Below, piece after piece: positions 33,251 through 59,680 of a DNA stretch of 64,000 nucleotides. Where the stretch lies: NCBI GenBank assembly GCA_023935145.1, contig CM043698.1, forward strand, positions 18,169,001-18,233,000, given 5' to 3'. The position numbers and the translations under genes were made by a program. This DNA comes from Bretschneidera sinensis (lineage: Eukaryota; Streptophyta; Magnoliopsida; Brassicales; Akaniaceae). Every line of letters begins with the position of its first letter. The first letter of the stretch is position 1. The notes below the pieces were generated by a model, which saw nothing but the letters and a program-made list of their open reading frames with translations, was not told the origin of the DNA and ran no database searches.

Positions 33251-33561
33251 CCTGTTGACCCTCGCCCGTATTTTAATGATGGCAAAACACAACTGTTATT
33301 TGACTAACAAGTTTAAACTAAGTTGTATTAAGGATCAAACACATTCAACCAAGGAACAAAATGCAATAACTCGAACCAAATCAAGTATCAAGTGAAGACT
33401 GAAGATCTAGTATAGGTCTTAAGGTTTAGAACCAATGTAAGTCTCACTTATGGTATTAGCTTGTTCAATGGCTCGAACACAAAAGGTTTTCTAAAGCCGT
33501 TAATTTTAAAACAAATGTTTTTTTTTATGAAAAACATAAGAAAAACTGGGTTAGAAGACAA

Positions 33562-33823
33562 CCCAGTCGACTGGGTACATATACCAGTCGACTGGTATAT
33601 GGGATAGAAGGTCCCCAGTCGACTAGATGAATCAACCCAATCGACTGGTAATTGGACAGTAAGTCCCCAGTCGACTAGATGAATCAACCCAGTCGATTGG
33701 TAAAAGGGATAGAAAGTTCCTAGTCGACTGGATGAAATATGCCAGTCGACTAGATACCCAAAAGGTCTGAAAACGTGATTTTTTCAAGAGAACCCAGTCG
33801 ACTGGTATCTCGACCCAGTCGAC
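33562..33823. promoter_or_regulatory. Array of ten CCAGTCGACTGG palindromes, copia 5' LTR
   Basis: Ten sites lie in about 260 bases. Four are the perfect 12-bp palindrome; the other six differ from it by one C-to-T or G-to-A transition. They sit in the U3 part of the LTR, upstream of the TATA box. Dense dyads in this position look like binding sites for a dimeric protein (inference). Confidence 0.8.
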
Positions 33824-33921
33824 TGGTAGTTCAAAAATATGACCGTTGGACTCCAAATCTGAACGTTTTAAAGTAAATCTTTTTCAAATTAAAGTCCTAA
33901 ACGGCCATATTAATTGATTGC

Positions 33922-33929
33922 TATATAAA
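33922..33929 (+). promoter_or_regulatory. TATA box, copia 5' LTR
   Basis: TATATAAA, conserved in the 3' LTR at 43008-43015. Confidence 0.75.
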
Positions 33930-34506
33930 CCCATTCAGTTAAGCATTCAATAACAAGCTGCATATATTCAAAAAGAGTTGATCTCACATAATCAAGTTTT
34001 TATACTCTTGAAACACAAAAAGCTTTGAAATAATCTTGTTGAGCCATTTCTTCAAGCTTTACTTTGAAAGAGAGACATTTCTGTTATAATAAGCTTTCAT
34101 TTGCTGTCTCTCTACCTTTTACTTTACACCATCTTTGTAAAGGGATTACTTCCGAGAGGAAGGGGAAACTTTCAAAATGAAGGGGATTGTTCGGTTCAAG
34201 CAACTCCTGTAATTTGCTTATGTACGGTTTGTGCAATACCCAGCTAATTTGTGCGACTAAGTTTTCTTAGTGGATTACTTCAAGGTGTTCCCTGAAGAGA
34301 GTGGACGTAGGGTCGGAACAAATCCGATATTGCCGAACCACTATAAACTGTGTTTGCATCATCTTTCCTTAAACTCTTTATTTACAGCACTTTACTTGTA
34401 TTAATTGTTTGCTGCTTATCAGTTTTTATAAACTTGTATTAATTCCGTAAAAAGTTTTTAAAAGCCCAATTCACCCCCCTCTTGGGTTGAAACCTCAAGC
34501 TACAAT

Positions 34507-34518
34507 TGGTATCAAAGC
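34507..34518 (+). other. Primer-binding site of the copia element
   Basis: TGGTATCAAAGC, one mismatch from the initiator-methionine tRNA complement TGGTATCAGAGC used by plant copia elements, two bases after the LTR end. Confidence 0.88.
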
Positions 34519-34559
34519 TTCGTTCTCTTAATTAGGCTTAAAATCCTTGAGTTGATCCA

Positions 34560-36623
34560 ATGGCAACAAATAGCTACTCTGAGGGACACTCTTATACTAG
34601 ACCACCATTGTTCAATGGCTCAAATTATAACTACTGGAAAAATAGAATGAAAATCTTTGTCGAAGGACAAGATTACAATCTATGGAGAATCATAGAAGAA
34701 TGACCTAAAATTCATTCAAAAGAAATAGTTATTGGAGAGACTCTTCATACAATGCCTAAACTCAAAACTGAGTTTACTGACGAGGATTGTAAAACGATGT
34801 CTCTCAATAGCAGAGCAACAAGCATGCTACATTGTGCATTAGATATTTCTAAATATAACAAAATATCTGCATGCGTTTCTGCTAAAGAAATATGGGACAA
34901 ATTACAAGTCACATATGAAGGAACTAGTGAAGTAAAAAAATCTAAAATTTATATGCTAATTTCTGAGTATGAATCTTTCAAGATGTCTCCTAACAAAACC
35001 ATTTCTGAAATGCACTCACGGTTCACCACTATTATAAATGGTTTAAAATTACTTGGTAAGAATATTGAGGAAGTTGAACTAACCAGAAAAATCTTGAGAT
35101 CTCTGCCACCAGAATAGAAACCAAAGAGGACAGCCATTCAGGAGGCCAAAAATCTTGACAAGCTTGATGTTGAGACGCTGCTTGGGTCATTATTGACATA
35201 CAAGATGGAAGAAATGACTCCCATCGTCAATGATGATGAGAAGAAGAAAAAGCAAATTGCTCTCAAAGCTTCTACGAGCAACAAAGAAAAGGAATTAGAA
35301 CAAGAAGCAGAGAGCAGTGAAGAGGATGGTGAAATGGCCTTAATCACCAGACGATTCCATAGGTTCTTGAAGAAAAGCAAGAAACCTTACTCAAAAGATC
35401 CCACCTCAAAAAAGGAACCACTTATATGCTATGGCTGCAAGAAGCCAGGACACATAAAAGCTGACTGTCCTGTTTCAAACAAACCGTACAAGGGATTTAA
35501 GAAGAAAGCTATGATAGCAACTACCTGGAGCGATGACGAAGAAGATGAATCATCAGACAAACAAATCGGATATGAGGAAATTGCCAACCTTTGTTTGATG
35601 GCAATCGATGATGAAAGTGAGGTAATATCTTTTCCCTCTTCAAAAAATAATATTGTTACTAGTAGTGAAGAACTGCTAGAAGTTATAAATGAAATGCATG
35701 AAGAATTGAAGAAATTTGATTCTAGAAATTCTGTTCTTAAAAAAGAAGTATCATCTCTTTCTAAAGAAATGATAATTCTTAGAGAAGAAAAAGAAAAATT
35801 ATCATCTTTACTGTATGATTCTTCTCAAGATTTTCTCAAAGATGAAAATGAGAATTTGAAAAATAAAATTTCTGAATTAAATAGCACTATATCAAGACTT
35901 ATGCTTGGTAAAGAAAAACTTGATGAAGTGCTTTCTTCCCAAAGATTAAGTGGAGAAAAATCTGGTGTATGATATTCTCCATTGGGAAAACAAAAAACAA
36001 AAGAGAGCTTATTCATGAAAGCCTCTTGTGTAGATGGAGCTTCTACTTCAAAAGCTCCTAGCATGGTTAAAAGCACTCCCTCGATGAATACTAGGAAGTC
36101 TAAAAATTTAAATGTTCATACTAAATTGAAGCATCCTAAAAATACTCATGCTTATATGTATGCTCATTCTAGAAATGCTCATACACATCATAGAAATAAT
36201 TATCATGCTCATTCTAGGAACAATGTGTATAATCAAAGAATGCATTCTGCTCTTGCTCATCCTAGGAATTACCATCATGGTTATCCTAGAAATAATATGC
36301 ACACACAAAATAACGCTAGTATGTATCCTAGAATGCATCATCATACTCTTTATAGAAATGACATGCATTTTCATACTCCTTACCATAGAAACATGTATCC
36401 TATGAACTATTATCCTAAGGATTATAGGAATGCATATGTAAGACATCCTAGAAATTTCTATGACTATCATGCTAGGATTGTGTATCATCAACTTGTTCAT
36501 AGAGCACCACATGTTAAGAAAGTATGGGTCCCAAAAGGAACCGTATTTTCAAGGACTAACCCCAAAGGACCCAAGAAATTTTGGGTACCTAAAAGTGCTA
36601 TCGTATATCCTTGTGTGATGTAG
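34560..36623 (+). pseudogene. Copia gag region with zinc knuckle, coiled coil and His-rich spacer
   Basis: One reading frame from the ATG at 34560, shared with protease and integrase. It is interrupted by stops at 34701-34703, 35115-35117, 35970-35972 and 36621-36623. In order: the capsid-like N-terminus (PPLFNGSNYNYWK; the copia gag family UBN2), a CCHC knuckle CYGCKKPGHIKADCP near 35428, a Glu/Lys-rich coiled coil (35650-35950), and a spacer at 36112-36520 with repeated HxRN words. Gag forms the particle that packages element RNA. The stops prevent full-length product unless they are read through. Confidence 0.9.
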
Positions 36624-39600
36624 ATTTGCCTCCACACCAAGGAGAAAGGTAACTGTTGGTACCTTGATAGCGGATGCTCGAAGCACATGACCGGTGATAA
36701 AAGTGTATTCAATGAGCTAACTCTAAGAGATGGTGGACTTGTGACCATTAGAGACAATACTAAAATAAAGATCATCGGGCATAGAAAAGTCGGTAATGAT
36801 TTCTCAACCTTAGATAATGTATTGCTAGTACAAGGCCTTAAGCCAAATTTACTTAGCATTAGTCAATTACGTGACAAAGGATACAAAGTCACATTTGAGA
36901 CCTCTCATTGTCTAGTTATAGACATCAAGGGCAACAAGATCAAATTCATCGGCCATAGACATAAAAATGTTTACATAATTGATTTGAAATCCTTGCATTC
37001 TGATAATGAAAAATGTTTTCCTGCTTTTAGTGGAAATCCATGGCTATGGCATAGAAGGCTTGGTCATGTAAACATGAACTTGCTAAAAATTGTTTTAAGA
37101 AAAGATTTAGTTATTGGACTTCCTAAAATCAATTTTGAAAAAGAAAAAGTTTGCAATGCTTGTCAAATGGGAAAACAAACTAGGATTTCTTTTAAAGCAA
37201 AAAATGTAGTCTCAACTACTAGACCTTTGGAACTTTTGCATATGGACTTATTTGGTCCAATTAGTACCATTAGTCTAGGTGGCCATCAATATGCTCTTGT
37301 TATTGTTGATGACTATTCAAGATATACCTTTGTTATTTTTATTGCTTACAAGGATGAAGCTTTCAAAGTATTTGAAAAGTTTTGCAAAAAGGTACAAAAT
37401 GAAAAAGGAATTTGTATTTCAAGCATAAGAAGTGATAATTGCAAAGAATTTGAAAATCAAAGCTTTTCAAAATTTTGTGATGAAAATGGAATTAATCACA
37501 ACTTTTCAGCTCCTAGAACTGCTCAACAAAATGGAGTTGTTGAGAGAAAAAATAGAGTTCTAGAAGAATTTTCAAGAACTATGCTTTGTGAAAATAGTTT
37601 ACCAAAATACTTTTGGGCTGAAGCCGTGAATACTTCTTGCTGTATATTAAATAGAATTTTGATAAGGTCTTTGCTTGATAAAACTCCATATGAACTTTGG
37701 AAAGGGAGAAAACCCAATATTTCCTATTTTCGTGCTTTCGGTAGTAAGTGCTTCATCTTAAATAACAATAAAACTAACTTGGGTAAATTTGATTCCAAGA
37801 CCGATGAAGGAATATTTTTAGGATATTCAACTACTAGTAAAGCTTATAGAGTTTTCAATAAAAGAACTCTAGTAGTAGAAGAATCTGTGCATGTAACCAT
37901 TAATGAATCTAATCCAATGAGTAGTAGAGAAGTTTCCTTTAAAGATGATGCAGATTTTATTCCAAGAATGGAAACTCCTACTCCCATTGTTGACCCAAAA
38001 GAGAGATCTCCTCAAGCAAATGAAGGGATGGCAACTCCCAATTTGGACCAATCATCCTTAAGTCAACAAGAGGAAAATCTACCCAAGGATTGGAGGTATG
38101 TAAATCATCATCCAATTGATCAAGTGATTGGTGATCCTTCACAAGGGGTAAGAACTCGCTCTTCCATTAGAAATATTTGCAATTTTGTAGCTTATTTGTC
38201 TCAAGTAGAACCTAAGACGTTTATAGAAGCTGAAAAAAGATAATGATTGGATAATTGCAATACAGGAAGAGATAAATCAATTTAAGAGAAACAATGTATG
38301 GAAACTAGTTACAAGACCAAAAGATCATTCAATAATTGGAACTAAATGGGTATATAGAAATAAAATGGATGAAAATGGTATAGTAACTAGAAATAAAGTT
38401 AGATTAGTTGCTAAGGGATATAACCAAGAGGAAGGAATAGATTTTGATGAAACCTATGCTCTTGTAGCTAGATTAGAAGCTATTCGAATGTTATTAGCCT
38501 TTGCATGCTTTAATAAATTCAAGCTATTTCAAATGGATGTGAAAAGTGCCTTTTTAAATGGCTTTATAGAAGAAGAGGTTTATGTTGAGTAACCTCTTGG
38601 ATTTGAAAATCCTAGTCTTTCAAATCATGTCTACAAGCTTTCTAAAGCTCTATATGGGTTGAAGCAAGCTCCAAGAGCATGGTATGAAAGACTAAGTAAA
38701 TTTTTGATTGACAATGATTTTGTAAAAGGTAGAATAGACACAACTCTCTTCACAAAAACTCACAAAAATGACACTTTGATAGTTCAAATATATGTTGATG
38801 ATATTATATATGGTGCTACTAATGAATCTATGTGTCAAGAGTTTGCAAAGTGGATGCAAGGTGAATTTGAAATGAGCATGATGGGAGAACTTGCCTACTT
38901 CCTTGGACTACAAATCAAGCAACTAAAAGGAGGTATCTTCATCAATCAACAAAAGTACATCAAAGACCTACTAAAGAGGTTCGGGATGGAAAGCTCAAAG
39001 CCAATTGGAACGCCTATGAGCACAACTACTAAACTTGATCTTGATGAAGGAGGTAAAAATGTAGATTCTAAATATTATAGAAGCATGATAGGTGCTTTAC
39101 TTTATTTGACTGCAAGTAGACCTGATATAATATTCAGTGTATGCATGTGTGATAGATTTCAGTCTAATCCTAAGGAATCACATGTAGTTGCAGTAAAAAG
39201 AATCCTTAGATATCTACAAGGAACCCAGACCATAGGATTATAGTACTCTAGAGAATAATCTTTTGAGCTAGTAGGATATTCAGATGCTGATTTTGCTGGA
39301 TGTAGGTTAGATAGAAAGAGCACAAGTGGAACATGTCAATTCTTAGGTGCTATGTTAACATCTTGGTTTTCCAAGAAACAGAATTCCGTTGCACTATCAA
39401 CCGCTGAGGCGGAATATGTAGCAACTGGAAGTTGTTGTGCCCAAGTATTATGGATGAAACAACAACTAGAAGACTATGGCATGAATCTAAAAAATATTCC
39501 TATATTTTGTGATAATATTAGTGTCATCAACCTAACCAAAAATCTTATTCAGCACTCTAGAACCAAGCATATAGAGATTAGACATCATTTCCTAAGAGAC

Positions 39601-39684
39601 CATGCTAAAAAAGGTGATATAAGATTAGAATTCATACCTTCAGAAGATCAAATAGCTGATATTCTTACAAAACCCTTAAGCTAA
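36624..39684 (+). pseudogene. Copia pol: protease, integrase, reverse transcriptase, RNase H
   Basis: It continues the gag frame to about 38243, then shifts frame in an A-run near 38230. Protease WYLDSGCSKHM; integrase zinc finger HRRLGH with CNACQMGK, core HMDLFGP and a conserved Glu in NGVVERKN; reverse transcriptase [12 protein letters not shown] and YVDDIIYG; RNase H YSDADFAG and ALSTAEAEYVA. Further stops lie at 38590-38592, 39241-39243 and 39256-39258. The integrase site usually read as DNGGEF is altered to SDNCKEF. All domains are recognisable, but the polyprotein is broken. Confidence 0.93.
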
Positions 39685-39885
39685 GCTAGTTTTTGTAAGA
39701 TTAGAATGTTGATGGGATTGCTTGATTTTGATAAACTGAATGTTTGATTGTATCTCATTTCATCATTTGCATATTTAACATTGAGTGAAAGAATATTAAT
39801 CATTGTTTAATTATTTTCCTCACTCAAAAATGTCATAGATGAACAAAATCGTGCAAAAATTCAAGACTAGAAATTTTACTAAGGG

Positions 39886-40180
39886 TCTAGTCGACTGATA
39901 AATGTTCTCCAGTCGACTGGTAATTCACTGCCAGATCTTCCAGTCGACTGGTACCTCTGACCCAGTCGACTGGAAACTCTCTGCCAAATATTCCAGACGA
40001 CTGGTAAGTCTTTTCCAGTCGTTTATTAGGTCGAATCCTTGTTTGGCGCCAATTTTTGAAAAATCCTTGTCCTCTAGTCGACTGGTAAAGATAGCCCAAT
40101 CGACTGGTAAATAACTACTAGTTTATCTAGTCGACTGGTACGTAAACTATTCATCTTATCAATGGGACCCAATCGACTGG
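39886..40180. promoter_or_regulatory. Internal palindrome array directly upstream of the copia aORF
   Basis: A second set of about ten CCAGTCGACTGG-type sites, three of them perfect, lies between the pol stop and the aORF. Like the LTR array it is followed at once by a TATA box (40192-40200). It is not a copied LTR: spacing and intervening sequence differ. Confidence 0.75.
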
Positions 40181-40191
40181 TAACGCGATAT

Positions 40192-40200
40192 TATAAATAG
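40192..40200 (+). promoter_or_regulatory. Putative internal TATA box for the copia aORF
   Basis: TATAAATAG, a near-consensus plant TATA box, 210 bases upstream of the aORF ATG and just after the palindrome array. This suggests a dedicated internal promoter (inference). Confidence 0.55.
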
Positions 40201-40409
40201 AACTGTTCATTTTTCTGAAATTTTACGCCATTTTCAAGCTCCCAAATTTTCTCTCTCTAGAAAAATTCACCATTTTGATCCAAAAACCATCCAAACTTCA
40301 TCTAAACACACCGATCTACTCATCCATAAAGAGATTTTTGACTTTCTATGGTTAAAATCTCTTATTTTCGCCAAAATCCATTTTTCCCAAAAACTTATTT
40401 TTCTTCAAA

Positions 40410-41666
40410 ATGAGTGATAAAATCCGTATAAAACTCACAACAAGTGAACCTAATGCGCCTAAAAAGCCAAGGTCTTCAAAACCTTCGGCTTCGAAGTCGA
40501 AAGGAAAGGGAGCAGCGGGCTCATCCAGCAAGGAGCCCAGAACAGAGTTGGAGCAGACTCTGTTTTACAGTCCAGCGGCTTATGCAAGGTATAATTCTAT
40601 AATCCGTCACAAGAAAATCATGACGGGTAGAGTCATTGATTTCGACTCTATTCTCCATGGAAATTTCGATATTCTACCAGCCTTTGAGGCAATAAATCTG
40701 ACCCCACTGGTCAGAATTCATGAGAAATATTACCCGCGACTGATTCACCAGTTCTACGCGAACTTGGTGAAACCAAGTCCTCTGGCTCTGAGATTCAGAA
40801 CCAGAGTTAGCGGTGTGGAGTTTGAGGTCAACACTGACCTCTTGATGAGCATTATGAGAATCCCTGTAAGGGGGGTTCAATGGAGTCTGGATGGATGGCC
40901 AGACAATTTTGAGGTTGAGGAGGCCTGTCAGATAGTCAGGGGTGACCCTAACTATGTGTACAGACCCACTACATTTCATACATGTAGTGACTTGCCCCTC
41001 GACTCAAAGATGTTTCAGCTGATTGTCAGTTGGACCATCCACCCGAGACTCGGGAGTCGAGGGTATCTATCTAAAATAGATACGGTATTGATTTGGTGCC
41101 TAAAATCTGGGCACCACTTCAATATATATCCTCTGCTGCTCGTCAACATGATAAATGGCGAAGTAAACGACTCCGGGTATCTTCCTTATAGGATGCTATT
41201 TACGCTCATCCTCTAGCACTTCCGGGTATTTTTGCCTGCCTCCGAGGCTCAAGATATCAGATTGACGGACATCATCAACATTTCATCACTGAAGAAGATG
41301 GGATGTACTGTTCGTGAAGGGTTCCTTTATCCGAAGGCCGAAAAGTGCCTGAGGATCTGAGAGGATGCGAGCGACAGTGATGAGGATGCTGATACGACTG
41401 CTGAGATGGAGACAGATACCCGAGCACCTCCCATTGGTGACTCCAGTACTGGTCAGACTGGTTACGGCAACATCCTATGAGCTATCACGAGCCTCCAGAT
41501 GATGATAGAGTCCGGTTTTCAGTCCATGCAGTCTGATTACCAGAGACTGAGCTCCTCCATAGACCACTTACGGGACGACTTCGAGTTACATCGAGAGCAC
41601 ACCGAGGGTTCCCTAGCTAAGATTAGGGATCTTCTTCATGACAGCTCGGACTCTCCCGCACCTTGA
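40410..41666 (+). pseudogene. Additional ORF (aORF) of the copia element, plant-transposon-protein-like
   Basis: The frame runs 419 codons from the ATG at 40410 to TGA at 41664, with internal stops at 41214-41216, 41358-41360 and 41478-41480. The N-terminus is basic and Ser/Lys-rich (disordered). The middle (YYPRLIHQFYANLV, TDLLMSIMRIPVRG, MFQLIVSWTIHPRL) resembles the family called putative plant transposon protein, found in extra ORFs of plant LTR elements. An acidic stretch follows, then a C-terminal coiled coil. Its function is unknown in the family. It is in sense orientation downstream of pol, where Sireviruses carry their env-like ORF, but no membrane segment is evident. Confidence 0.7.
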
Positions 41667-42324
41667 GTCCATATCTTTATCATGTACTTAGTGTTTTCCA
41701 GTTCTTATCATATGGCACAGACATACCATGATATTATTTTGTCTTAGTTATGGCTCTGTGAAGCCCGTTTGTGTATTGACTTTTTATATATGATGATGTA
41801 TTTCTATTAGCCATATTTCTTGCCTCTATTTAAGCTATTTATGATATGTTAGCTCTATTTTAAAACTCTGTTTAGCCACTAAACTGCTCTAAAATGCTTA
41901 TACGTGTATGAAAACTTTCAGTTTTTCTCAAGAAGGCTTTCGAAACCAGAATGAAGCCAAATTTTCGCGTACAAGTTTGTTTTCTTATACTCTAGATGAC
42001 TGTATTGGCTAAATAGCTTACTTTTCGTGTTATGCCCCCTTTGGTTACTGTTGTCAAAACGGGGAAAAAATGAGAAAAACGAGAAAATCTAAGTAAACGC
42101 AACCAATGCATAGTTTTAGGGGGAGCATTGCTCCATAGCATTATAAAAATGTTTATTGATTGGTTGAGTTTGATTCTGGATTGGTTGACAGATATATAAA
42201 CTGTGTTTGCTTATTTACAGGGTGGTTTTTACTCGAAAAATAGAGGAGACTCTGTCCAATTTTTTGTAAAATCCTAACACTTAGTTTTTTATACTGTTTT
42301 CACATTATTAGTTTTGTCATCATC
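41667..42324 (+). other. Copia 3' untranslated region
   Basis: No coding frame. Moderately AT-rich sequence between the aORF and the polypurine tract. Confidence 0.6.
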
Positions 42325-42337
42325 AAAAAGGGGGAGA
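42325..42337 (+). other. Polypurine tract of the copia element
   Basis: AAAAAGGGGGAGA one base before the 3' LTR; primes plus-strand DNA synthesis. Confidence 0.88.
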
Positions 42338-42338
42338 T

Positions 42339-43473
42339 TGTTGACCCTCGCTCGTATTTTAATGATGGAAAAACACAACTGTTATTTGACTAACAAGTTT
42401 AAACTAAGTTGTATTAAGGATCAAACACATTCAACCAGGAACAAAGTGCAAGAACTCGAACCAAATCAAGTATCAAGTGAAGACTGAAGATCTAATATAG
42501 GTCTTAAGGTTTAGAACCAATGTAAGTCTCACTTCTGGTATTGGCTTGTTCAATGGCTCGAACACAAAAGGTTTTCTAAAACCGTTAATTTTAAAACAAA
42601 TGTTTTTTTTTTATGAAAAACAGAAGAAAAACTGGGTTGGAAGACAACCCAGTCGACTGGGTACATATAACAGTCGACTAGTATATGGGACAGAAGGTCC
42701 TCAGTCGACTGGATGAATCAACCCAGTCGACTGGTAATTGGACAGTAAGTCCCCAGTTGACTGGATGAATCAACCCAGCTGACTGGCAAAAGGGACAGAA
42801 AGTCCCCAGTTGACTGGATGAAATATACCAGTCGACTGGATACCCAGAAGGTCTAAAAACATGATTTTTTCAAGAGAACCCAGTCGACTGGTATCTCGAC
42901 CCAGTCGACTGGTAGTTCAAAAATATGACCATTGGACTCCAAATTTGAACGTTTTAAAGTAAATTTTTTTCAAATTAAAGTCCTAAACGGCCATATTAAT
43001 TGAATTCTATATAAACCCATTCAGTTAAGCATTCAATAACAAGCTGTAAATATTTAAAAAGAGTTGATCTCATATAATCAAGTTTTTATACTCTTGAAAT
43101 ACAAAAAGCTTTGAAATAATCTTGTTGAGCCATTTTTTCAAGCTTTACTTTGAAAGAGAGACATTTCTATTGTAATAAGCTTTCATTTACAGTCTCTCTA
43201 CCTTTTACTTTACACCATCTTTGTAAAGGGATTACTTCCGAGAGGAAGGGGAAACTTCTGAAAGGAAGGGGATTATTCGGTTTAAGCAACTCCTGTAATT
43301 TGCTTGTGTACGGTTTGTGCAACACCAGGCTAAGTTGTGCGACTAAGTTTTCTTAGTGGATTATTTCAAGGTGTTCCTTGAAGAATGTGGACGTAGGGTC
43401 GGAACAAATCCGATATTGCTGAATCACTATAAACTGTGTTTGCATCCTCTTTCCTTAAACTCTTTATTTACAG
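42339..43473 (+). repeat. 3' LTR of the copia element, truncated
   Basis: Matches the 5' LTR from TGTTGACCCTCGC to TTTATTTACAG, then stops. The last ~118 bases of the 5' LTR are absent and unrelated GC-rich DNA follows. It carries ten palindrome sites (five perfect; several others C-to-T changed, as in CCAGTTGACTGG) and a TATA box at 43008-43015. Differences from the 5' LTR are scattered, so the insertion is not recent. Confidence 0.93.
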
Positions 43474-44514: not shown

Positions 44515-45450
44515 GCTTCAAATGCTTGAACTAGGAGAAGTCTTGGCCGAGTGTCTGACAACTGTCTCGCGATGCTCGAACCTGGAGAACTTGTCCGAGT
44601 GTTTGCGAAGCAGCTCAAACGCTCAGACCTGGAGAACTTTTCCGAGCGTTTGATAAGCAGCTCAAACACTAGGTCCTGGAGAACTTGTCCAAGCGTTTGT
44701 GAAGTAGCTCAAACGCTTGGACCTGGAGAACTTGTCCGAGCATTTGGCAAGCAGCTCCAACGCTCGGACCTGGAGACTTTGACCGAGCGTTTGACAAGCA
44801 GCTCAAACGCTCGAACCTGGAGAACTTGTCCGAGCATTTGTGTAGCAGCTCAAACGCTCGGACCTGGAGACTTTTTCCGAGCCTTTGACAAGCAGCTCAA
44901 ACACTCAGACCTAGAGAACTTGTCCGAGCATTTGTGAAATAGCTCAAACACTCGGACCTGGAGAACTTGTCCGAGTGGTTGACAAGTAGCTCAAACACTT
45001 GAACCTGGAGAACTTGTCCGAGTGTTTGACAAGCAGCTCAAACGCTCGGACCTGGAGGACTTGTCTGAGTGTTTGACAAGCAGCTCAAACGCTCGGACCT
45101 GGAGAACGTGTTCGAGCATTTGACAAGCAGCTCAAATGCTCGAACCTGGAGAACTTGTCCGAGCGTTTGACAAGTAACTCAAACGCTCAGACCTGAAGAA
45201 CTTGTCTGAGCATTTGACAAGTAGCTCAAACACTCGGACCTAGAGAACGTGTCCGAGCATTTGACAAGCAGCTCAAATGCTCTGATCTGGAGAACGTGTC
45301 TGAGCGTTTGACAAGCAGCTCAAACCCTCGGACCTGGAAAACTTATTCGAGTGTTTGACAAGCAGCTCAAACGCTCGGATCGGGAAGATGTGTCCGAGCG
45401 TTTGACAAGTAACTCAAATGCTCGGACCTGGAGAAGTTATCCGTGTGACC
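44515..45450. repeat. 47-bp tandem array with an internal inverted repeat
   Basis: About 19-20 units. From 44580 to 45426, ACCTGG recurs on a 47-base grid with 18 intervals and no net length change. Each unit contains the dyad TCCGAGCGTTTGA / TCAAACGCTCGGA separated by about 8 bases. The array sits between the element's aORF and its 3' LTR. Hypervariable tandem repeats at this place are known in Tat-lineage elements (the 3' UTR repeats described for PIGY-like elements). Open frames through it are artefacts. Confidence 0.92.
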
Positions 45451-45830: not shown

Positions 45831-46600
45831 ATGTCTGTAGATAGTAAGGATTTGTCGAGGGAGTTGGAGGAAGCCATGGGTGTTTCCTCTAGCGACGAAG
45901 TCTCTTCCTCGGAGGCTGCCTCCCAGGATAGAGCCCTCGCACTGGTGCCTTATGTCTCAGAAGGAGGAGATGGGGAGGGCGATGATGGAGAGTCCTTTAG
46001 AGATGAGGATGTCCGAGCGTCAATGATAATTAAAGACGATGCCTTGGATATAGAAAAAGAGAAGTGGACTTTTAAAGCGAACTCCATCCCAAGTGTGGTG
46101 GAGGAGGCCAGTCTCATGGGGATAAGGATTAAGTATAGAATCCTCTTGGATTACCATATGAGGGTCCTGGAAGGAGGGGAGAGGGCCTGCGATGCCCTAG
46201 CGAGCCAGTTTCCCTATGAGCTGTATGTTTACAAACATCAGCTGAAGGCTAGGCTTAGGCTCCCTCTTCACTTGTTTTTCTGCTCGGTGCTTAGATACTT
46301 CGGTATCGCGCTGAGTCAGCTGGTGCCCAATTCGATCAGGTTGATCCTAGCGTTTATTGTAGTATGCCAGGAGGTTGGAGGGGTAATGAACCTCAACGTG
46401 TTCAAAGCCCACTTCCAACTAGCCCGGCTTGGCCACACGGGGTGGGTGATCGTAAGTTCGAGGCGGCGGAAGAGGGTACTGAAGGATAAGCCTTCTTCCA
46501 TAAAGAGGTGGAAGGGGGGATTTTTTTTTGCTTCAGAGTGCTGAGAGCTTTGATGTCCCCCTCAATTGGAGCCTGAAGCGTGTTGAAAAGTGCAAGAGGC
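45831..46600 (+). pseudogene. Antisense aORF of the Tat-lineage element, 5' part (putative gypsy-type transposon protein)
   Basis: Opens with an acidic Ser/Glu-rich N-terminus. A globular region follows with YELYVYKHQLKARLRLPLHL and LARLGHTGWVIVSS, typical of the family called putative gypsy type transposon (Transposase_28 in Pfam). Despite that name it is not a proven transposase. The frame ends at 46544 after a T-run, and family-like sequence (SWSLKRVEKCKR type) continues in another frame to 46600, where the Athila-like element interrupts it. It lies opposite to the element's pol, as in Grande-like elements. No host gene function is implied. Confidence 0.75.
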
Positions 46601-58553: not shown

Positions 58554-59680
58554 ATGTCTCAACCGTCTGTTTCCACGTCTGGCGCATCCAGCAGTCGTGC
58601 CTCCTCATCTCGGCCCAGCATCGAGCAACAAGAGTTGTTGTTCAAGACCGCTTTCGCCATTGACGACATATTCAGGCACATGGACCCACGCAATGGGTTG
58701 TCCAAGCATTTCGACTCCGAGGGTTGAAGAGGCTGTTTAAGCCGGTGTGCTTCACTACCTACTCCCAGCTCGTAGTCCAGTTTTATGAGTATTTATCTTT
58801 CGACTGCAACAGACCGGGAGTCCTCACCTCTTCAGTTAGGAGCACGCCCATCGATGTGACTAGTGCTGATATTACCACTGCTCTTCATTGTACCGATGAG
58901 TCCCATCTTGAGGACACTGATATAGAGGAGCAGCCGGAGTCCTTTTCCCTGGCCGAGATCATCACAGACATGTGCAATGGACAGTATGCCGACAGGCATA
59001 ACAATGCGGTCGATCGGTCTAAGCTGCCTCCCAGATTGTGGCTTATCGATACGATCTTTCATCGTAATGTGTGTCCGTTGGGGCACAAGACACAGCTGCG
59101 AGACCAGTTTCTCCAGACTTTATATACCTTCCATAAAGGCCACTGGTACTCCATCCCGTTTGTCATTTGGAGCCAGCTACACAAGTTCTGGGATCATATA
59201 CATGGCCATCAGACTACCACGGCCAATGCTTGGGGCCTCCCTTTCCCGTTCCTACTCACTTCCATCCTCAAGAAGAAGAGGATTAAGGGGACCCACAGTG
59301 ACGGGCCAGTACGAGAGCATCCTATCTTTATGAGGGCTCAATGGACACAGAGCATATCACACATGCCACGAGGCCCCCCAGTACCTGCTCCAGCAGCTGA
59401 GCGGGTTGAGGAGGATCACATAGAGACCGAGGCCCCGGTCATGAGCCCGGTACGGGAGGAGGACCATTCAGATATAGGACCCACCGAGTCCCAGCACTTC
59501 TTAGCTGAGCTATCCTCCTTCCGAGGCGAGGTCGCTGCCGCCACCACACTTGTACATCAGCGCATCGACAGTTTGGAAGCACGATTTACACGTCAGGAGG
59601 CCATGCTGCAGGCTATACTTGACCGCCTACCTCCAGCACCCGGTACCTCTCCGACTGCACCACTTGATGATCAGCAGTGA
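58554..59680 (+). pseudogene. Additional ORF (aORF) of the outer Athila-like element
   Basis: ATG at 58554, a Ser-rich start, then a frame change near 58715-58725 (the first frame reaches a TGA). The rest is open from about 58700 to TGA at 59678-59680. It resembles the putative plant transposon protein family (LVVQFYEYLSF, LPPRLWLIDTIFHRNVCPLG, WSQLHKFWDHI) and ends in a coiled coil (FLAELSSFRGEV, RQEAMLQAILDRL). Same overall layout as the copia aORF at 40410: disordered N-terminus, globular middle, acidic linker, coiled coil. Function unknown. Confidence 0.72.

Follow-up and report, generated by a model that had tools for sequence, protein, structure and literature searches.

How is the extra open reading frame of a Sirevirus-type retrotransposon expressed? 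This question is raised by a 64-kb stretch of the Bretschneidera sinensis genome (contig CM043698.1, positions 18,169,001 to 18,233,000), which we call the window and whose own coordinates are used throughout. Positions 33253–43473 contain a decayed Ty1/copia element, of Sirevirus type as judged from its sequence features, with an open reading frame (ORF), here named aORF, between pol and the 3' long terminal repeat (LTR). Arrays of a 12-bp palindrome, each followed by a TATA box, are found in both LTRs and again ahead of the aORF. Their sequence and arrangement make it probable, in our opinion, that the LTR and the aORF promoters, with their helically spaced arrays, are both read by a single DNA-binding factor.

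Palindrome arrays and TATA boxes

The window contains 29 matches to the palindrome CCAGTCGACTGG with at most two mismatches, against 0.79 expected from shuffled sequences. They form three clusters, with ten sites in the 5' LTR, nine internal sites and ten sites in the 3' LTR; the rest of the 64 kb has no site of this type. The 5' LTR array (33563–33826, plus strand) has spacings of 21, 31, 22, 30, 22, 31, 22, 52 and 21 nt, and the 3' LTR array (42649–42912, plus strand) has an identical register. The internal array (39887–40180, plus strand) occupies part of the linker that separates pol from the aORF; its spacings are 22, 31, 22, 31, 22, 59, 22, 31 and 42 nt. Besides its nine palindromes, it includes a degenerate tenth site, CCAGTCGTTTAT at 40015–40026, which has four mismatches and is placed exactly 22 nt past the neighbouring site. 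Where nine internal sites are found, 300 local shuffles give a mean of 0.013. A chance origin of the arrays is rejected by both counts.

All three arrays are followed by a TATA box on the same strand. In the 5' LTR it is TATATAAA at 33922–33929, 95 nt past the last array site, and in the 3' LTR the same sequence is found at 43008–43015. The internal one, TATAAATAG at 40192–40200, is placed 11 nt past the last site and 218 nt before the aORF ATG. A previous examination of this DNA, the sequence-only reading, had described ten palindromes upstream of TATATAAA in each LTR, exactly as we find, and a second cluster followed by TATAAATAG and by the aORF ATG at 40410, which is also present, with nine sites and a degenerate one. 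It had also considered that the internal cluster differs from the LTR array in both flanks and spacing, which is correct for the flanks only: the spacing is largely alike in both arrays. The similarity between LTR and internal spacers is reached by 28 of 200 and 21 of 200 shuffles, so that no relationship can be detected between them, and we reject the idea that the internal array is a simple copy of the LTR one.

An RNA started in the LTR would have 164 ATGs ahead of the aORF, against a single one for an RNA started internally, assuming that they start at 33953 and 40222, respectively. Stop read-through is reported for SIRE1 in passages of Bousios 2010 (PMC2829016). In its simple form this is unavailable here, since 725 nt separate the end of the pol stop from the ATG of the aORF. 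The last open piece of pol corresponds to 39352–39684 (plus strand), and the 3' end of pol adjoins the linker in relatives.

Related copies, helical spacing and selection

The palindrome is very abundant in this genome: the 1.21-Gb assembly contains 55,578 exact copies, against 11 for a control with reversed letters. We have searched for relatives of the aORF using the open part of its protein as query, and the best 143 of 8398 candidates were scored. Of the 142 scored matches outside the window, 69 were retained by protein similarity, and these are the copies analyzed below. The array is found before the aORF in all 69, none being without it, which agrees with the co-occurrence of array and aORF that had been singled out as a check. 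TATAWA is placed exactly 11 nt past the last site in 66 of the 69 copies, and 550 of their 737 sites are perfect. When 30 aORF loci are considered, the one in the window included, all of them carry 8–13 sites upstream and 29 have TATAWAW at offset 11. In the whole genome, CAGTCGACTGG-N11-TATAWA is found at 1014 + 1015 places (0 + 0 in the control).

The same arrangement is found in a divergent copy, family B, whose aORF has 78% amino acid identity and a synonymous divergence (dS) of 0.72–0.79. Its array is similar, partly decayed, and TATAAATAG is also found at offset 11. A pairwise comparison with one of the copies (L029) gives 89/120 identical positions in palindromes and 116/196 in spacers, a weak contrast which is limited by the decay of the family B copy and by unequal site numbers, which misalign the arrays. 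As for the LTRs, TATATAAA lies 94–95 nt past the last site in 13 of 15 LTR pieces, counting the two in the window. The stretches beside two LTRs of C1 (near 637k and 656k; L101 and L102) have no match to linker, aORF or pol, and L101 looks like a gypsy-type element. The viral contigs that were searched have no paired-motif match and no relative of the aORF.

A few details of the internal array may be mentioned. Its sixth site (at 40015 in the window) is degenerate and ends in TATA in 23 of the 30 aORF loci, as counted with a single search pattern; in L019, a copy described below, it is a perfect palindrome, and the degenerate version of the window retains the spacing. The two bases 3' of the palindrome are TA in 308 of 316 internal sites from the 30 loci: The internal motif is thus effectively asymmetric, CCAGTCGACTGGTA. 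An E2F-like sequence, TTTGGCGCCAA at 40042, was rejected as a candidate, as it is missing in all 29 other copies checked.

The spacing of the sites follows the DNA helix. Both the LTR and the internal arrays alternate steps of 21/22 and 30/31 nt, to which the LTR array adds a step of 52 and the internal array steps of 42 and 59. The step of 59, which separates the degenerate site from the following one, is the only one in the window that departs from whole helical turns. When ten sites are placed at random, the observed 10.5-bp phasing is equalled in 0 of 20,000 cases for the LTR array and in 6 of 20,000 for the internal array. The 69 other copies have 668 adjacent spacings between purely internal sites (another set, of 679 spacings of up to 75 nt, also holds some LTR sites of longer loci), and all 613 spacings of up to 75 nt are within 2 nt of whole turns. 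Among 16 pieces of C1 that cover LTR or internal arrays, 106 of 108 spacings of at most 75 nt are likewise near whole turns and none is near a half turn; for lengths of 15–75, 44% would pass the whole-turn test by chance and 38% would be near a half turn.

These distances bear on the suggestion that the palindromes might act as RNA, by forming hairpins, by packaging, or as structures which generate small interfering RNAs. The sites are self-complementary, the internal and 3' LTR arrays would sit inside the genomic RNA, and passages of PMC5311732 describe the palindrome-rich LTR regions of maize Sireviruses as small-RNA hotspots. Nevertheless, spacings of nearly whole turns of B-DNA and a location upstream of a TATA box are expected for DNA binding and not for RNA folding, and we regard a role as RNA as very unlikely.

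The sites are under selection, as may be seen when 144 palindrome columns are compared with 216 spacer columns over the 69 copies. Singletons, most of which probably arose after insertion, are equally common in both classes (39 and 60). Variants found in at least four copies, which must have gone through replication, are practically confined to spacers: 2 in palindromes against 66 in spacers (p=1e-8). The palindromes are also depleted of such variants when compared with the leader (p=0.003), with the upstream region (p=2e-6), or using C/G columns only (p=1e-5), and an alternative labelling of the columns gives 2 against 67 (p=2e-10).

The decay of the window copy may also be followed. Its two LTRs have a Kimura two-parameter (K2P) divergence of 0.059 over 1134 aligned columns, and the motif letter is present in at least one LTR at every position of all ten sites. 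The LTR palindromes are more diverged than the rest of the LTR (13/120 against 51/1014, p=0.019); 12 of the 13 differences are transitions, an excess such as methylated cytosines would give. For the nine internal sites the decay is 7/108 against 13/240 (p=0.80), where the count of 7/108 excludes the degenerate tenth site.

Selection also bears on a neutral origin of the arrays, by tandem repeat amplification without any function. Both arrays are partly made of tandem units of about 53 bp, with spacers that are alike inside each array, as such an origin would have it. This explanation is contradicted by the data and is hardly credible: The palindromes retain their letters while the spacers change, no relationship can be detected between LTR and internal spacers, and family B, though divergent, has an identical TATA offset.

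Two sequences near the LTR array should also be noted. TCCAACGGTCA is found just past it, at 33840–33850 on the minus strand, and is a full match to what we take to be the consensus of the plant M-phase activator motif. In 9 of 15 LTR pieces, TGACCGTT follows the last site at a distance of 13–14 nt. The M-phase motif may hint at expression of the LTR promoter in dividing cells.

Two proposed promoters on one plan, and copies without the aORF

The proposal that the aORF has an LTR-like promoter of its own, inside the element, is well supported at the level of sequence by the fixed TATAWA offset and by the selection on the sites. The element would then have two RNA polymerase II promoters of common design, in which a TATA box comes after some ten 12-bp palindromes that mostly face the same side of the DNA helix. 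The LTR array would drive the genomic RNA, and the internal array would drive an mRNA of its own for the aORF, with a start about 30 nt past 40192. One sequence-specific, probably dimeric factor would read both arrays, so that the genome and the aORF would be expressed under the same condition. We infer protein binding, transcription from the internal TATA box and co-regulation from the features described above. A single regulator for genomic RNA and aORF seems a reasonable assumption, already hinted at by Bousios 2010 (PMC2829016). Our preference is for a factor made by the host rather than by the element.

A subfamily without the aORF provides a natural experiment, which separates the role of the array from that of the aORF. 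Two of its members, L017 (C1:896300-899800) and L019 (C1:1407700-1411300), retain pol, the arrays of their LTRs and five or six sites from the start of the internal array, and are devoid of the aORF, the second half of the internal array and the aORF TATA box. Their LTRs, paired according to position and orientation, share 99.6% and 99.5% identity, which indicates that both elements have moved recently. A search with the sequence that replaces the aORF gave 531 candidates, of which the best 40 were scored. Twenty of these (L103-L122), together with L017 and L019, make up a set of 22 copies; L017 and L019 are the ones read as far as the 3' LTR, and the other 20, covered around the array, are assigned by their replacement sequence and presumably have no aORF.

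All 22 copies keep the first half of the internal array, with 2–6 sites each, and all of their 83 spacings are 22, 31 or 53. The sites are constrained: Variants in at least four copies number 2 in palindromes and 20 in spacers (p=0.0016), and a comparison of palindromes with sequence outside the array gives p=0.005, while singletons are 17 in each class. Nine of the 22 copies have TATAAAATC at 19 nt past their last site; it is perhaps a relic or a new promoter.

This constrained half-array is what would be expected if the internal array acts mainly as an enhancer, a boundary or an anti-silencing platform, with the aORF being expressed by splicing or only weakly. We consider this explanation unlikely, as the distance between the last site and the TATA box does not vary where the aORF is present. 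Furthermore, a promoter role may persist in the copies which have TATAAAATC, few copies are involved, and the sites could be renewed through recombination with relatives that carry the aORF.

The half-array is also a difficulty for the idea of two promoters read by one factor: Either the internal array may do more than drive the aORF, or its sites may be renewed by such recombination. Several other points weigh on the same side. If the window copy is considered alone, a TATAWAW at most 40 nt past the last site has a 6.7% probability by chance. The 69 copies are close relatives, with a median identity of 94%, and were picked by protein similarity. Variants found in two or three copies are not depleted (22 in palindromes, 27 in spacers). 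The nine TATA columns show no depletion either, with 4 singletons and 2 variants in at least four copies, although these are few columns. The 55 spacings longer than 75 nt (80–113, mostly the gap in the middle of the array) are phased worse than the others: 40 are within 2 nt of whole turns and 15 are farther off. Because of the tandem units of about 53 bp the spacings are not independent, and either selection may have maintained the phasing or it may descend from a single ancient unit, two origins that are not fully separable. Finally, passages of a review (PMC7264820) have env-like (envelope-like) genes transcribed from the 5' LTR.

The element and its protein among known systems

A Pfam scan of gag-pol gives the domain order Retrotran_gag_2, zf-CCHC, gag_pre-integrs, rve and RVT_2, which is copia-type. 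The 5' LTR (33253–34505, plus strand, 3' boundary inferred) is directly repeated as the 3' LTR (42339–43473, plus strand), whose 3' end is truncated. Sireviruses have several polypurine tracts near the 3' LTR; in the window, one such tract can be made out by eye next to it, along with another purine run, and several were noted in a relative without the aORF. Beyond the 3' LTR there is a 47-bp tandem repeat with 18.5 copies (44574–45443) and, after it, an ORF matching Transposase_28 (45831–46544).

The open N-terminal part of the aORF has 268 amino acids (40410–41213, plus strand); past 41213 the frame is interrupted by in-frame stops. Its only match in a Pfam scan (E 0.01) is Transposase_32 (PF20167), with an E value of 3e-11 and a score of 44 bits, just below the cut-off of 45; neither DUF1985 nor DUF287 is found in it. 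The aORF is conserved as a protein: The ratio of nonsynonymous to synonymous substitutions (dN/dS), calculated after dropping two stop-bearing codons, is 0.14–0.16 between families and 0.175 between the window copy and L029. Synonymous and nonsynonymous counts among 29 copies are biased by their choice on protein similarity. The protein has no transmembrane segment, as the highest 19-residue Kyte-Doolittle mean is 0.98 in the 268 amino acids and lower in three later pieces, and its N-terminal tail is basic, with a net charge of +9 in 45 amino acids. These features make it a poor envelope candidate, and it may instead be located in the nucleus. Among 310 candidates from a protein search with the piece of 268 amino acids, none reached E 0.001, and a structure prediction without relatives was uninformative, with a mean predicted local distance difference test (pLDDT) score of 37.7. 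We have also searched the genome for the Transposase_32 family, scoring the best 150 of 9379 candidates. Six of the 150, which are ORFs with a different start, were examined, and none has the array in the approximately 0.7 kb upstream. A second Transposase_32 ORF is present in the window at 58724–59680 (E 1.2e-9, below the cut-off), with no palindrome nearby.

Could the aORF protein itself be the factor? It would then bind to the palindromes of the two promoters and activate its own family or release it from silencing, and relatives without the aORF would use the protein in trans. In the Spm element of maize, a DNA transposon, the TnpA protein acts on repeated short motifs and activates a methylated promoter, which is no more than a resemblance. 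Another model is the anti-silencing protein VANC, which binds its motif and removes methylation in trans, of the Arabidopsis VANDAL elements, which in passages of PMC5735166 have dense arrays of short, family-specific motifs, non-coding and partly tandem, as in our case. VANDAL elements, on the other hand, are DNA transposons, the motifs given are not palindromes, and VANC carries both DUF1985 and DUF287. According to Table 3 of Bousios 2010 (PMC2829016), each Sirevirus has one repeat consensus, common to LTR and linker, which differs between most elements, and this would fit the coevolution of the motif with a protein that binds it specifically. The basic tail, the absence of a membrane segment and the conservation of the protein point in the same direction.

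Nevertheless, we judge this loop unlikely. The open part of the aORF has neither of the two VANC domains, and the other Transposase_32 ORFs examined have no array. In the same tables and text (PMC2829016), an env-like gene is missing in 4 of the 13 Sireviruses with palindromes, and Osr10, Osr8, Vitis and Inga are said to have nearly identical motifs in spite of their distant hosts. Recent copies without the aORF keep their LTR arrays and a constrained internal half-array. By analogy, the palindrome might even be a family-wide code, where the aORF protein or a recruited host factor would bind some 55,000 sites and keep both promoters open; this seems quite doubtful to us. If true, it would be a retrotransposon counterpart of VANC, and the aORF-less subfamily with its half-array would be a parasite in trans.

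A promoter inside a retrotransposon has a precedent in Grande of maize, which belongs to Ty3/gypsy. Its accessory gene, gene23, is also found between pol and the 3' LTR and has its own internal promoter (Gomez-Orte 2013; PMC7264820). Unlike the aORF, gene23 is antisense to gag-pol, and the passages of these sources mention no array shared with the LTR.

The closest precedent is found in Sireviruses. The main text of Bousios 2010 (PMC2829016) reports palindromic repeated motifs (RM boxes) in 13 of them, in the LTR and upstream of the TATA box. The nine palindrome-bearing elements with an env-like gene all have linker copies, 77 of 79 being upstream of this gene; six further env-bearing elements have no motifs. 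As in our case, the same motif is clustered upstream of the LTR TATA box and of the extra gene, and arrays at both places make our main claim known in kind. An internal promoter was proposed there, none being conclusively identified, whereas here an internal TATA box is found at a fixed distance. The motif also differs: It has no CGG-CCG core, which is present in 12 of the 13 published motifs. Tnd-1 is also devoid of this core, so its absence does not exclude membership in Sireviruses. By eye, the published motifs nearest in form are those of Tnd-1, ACAATCGATTGT, and Vitis, CGGTCGACCG. Helical spacing is not discussed in that main text. In addition, the four palindrome-bearing elements without the gene have no linker copies there, while the aORF-less relatives described here keep them. 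In the titles and abstract openings that we have searched, with most subscription papers and supplements outside their scope, there is no mention of helical spacing, a fixed internal TATA box or aORF-less array carriers. What is new here is the constant position of the internal TATA box, together with the helical spacing and the signs of selection.

In summary, the expression of the extra gene of Sireviruses and the role of their palindrome arrays have been an open question since at least 2010. About 2,000 places with a palindrome, N11 and a TATA box, a phase rule and a signature of selection turn the idea of a shared promoter into a concrete and testable one.

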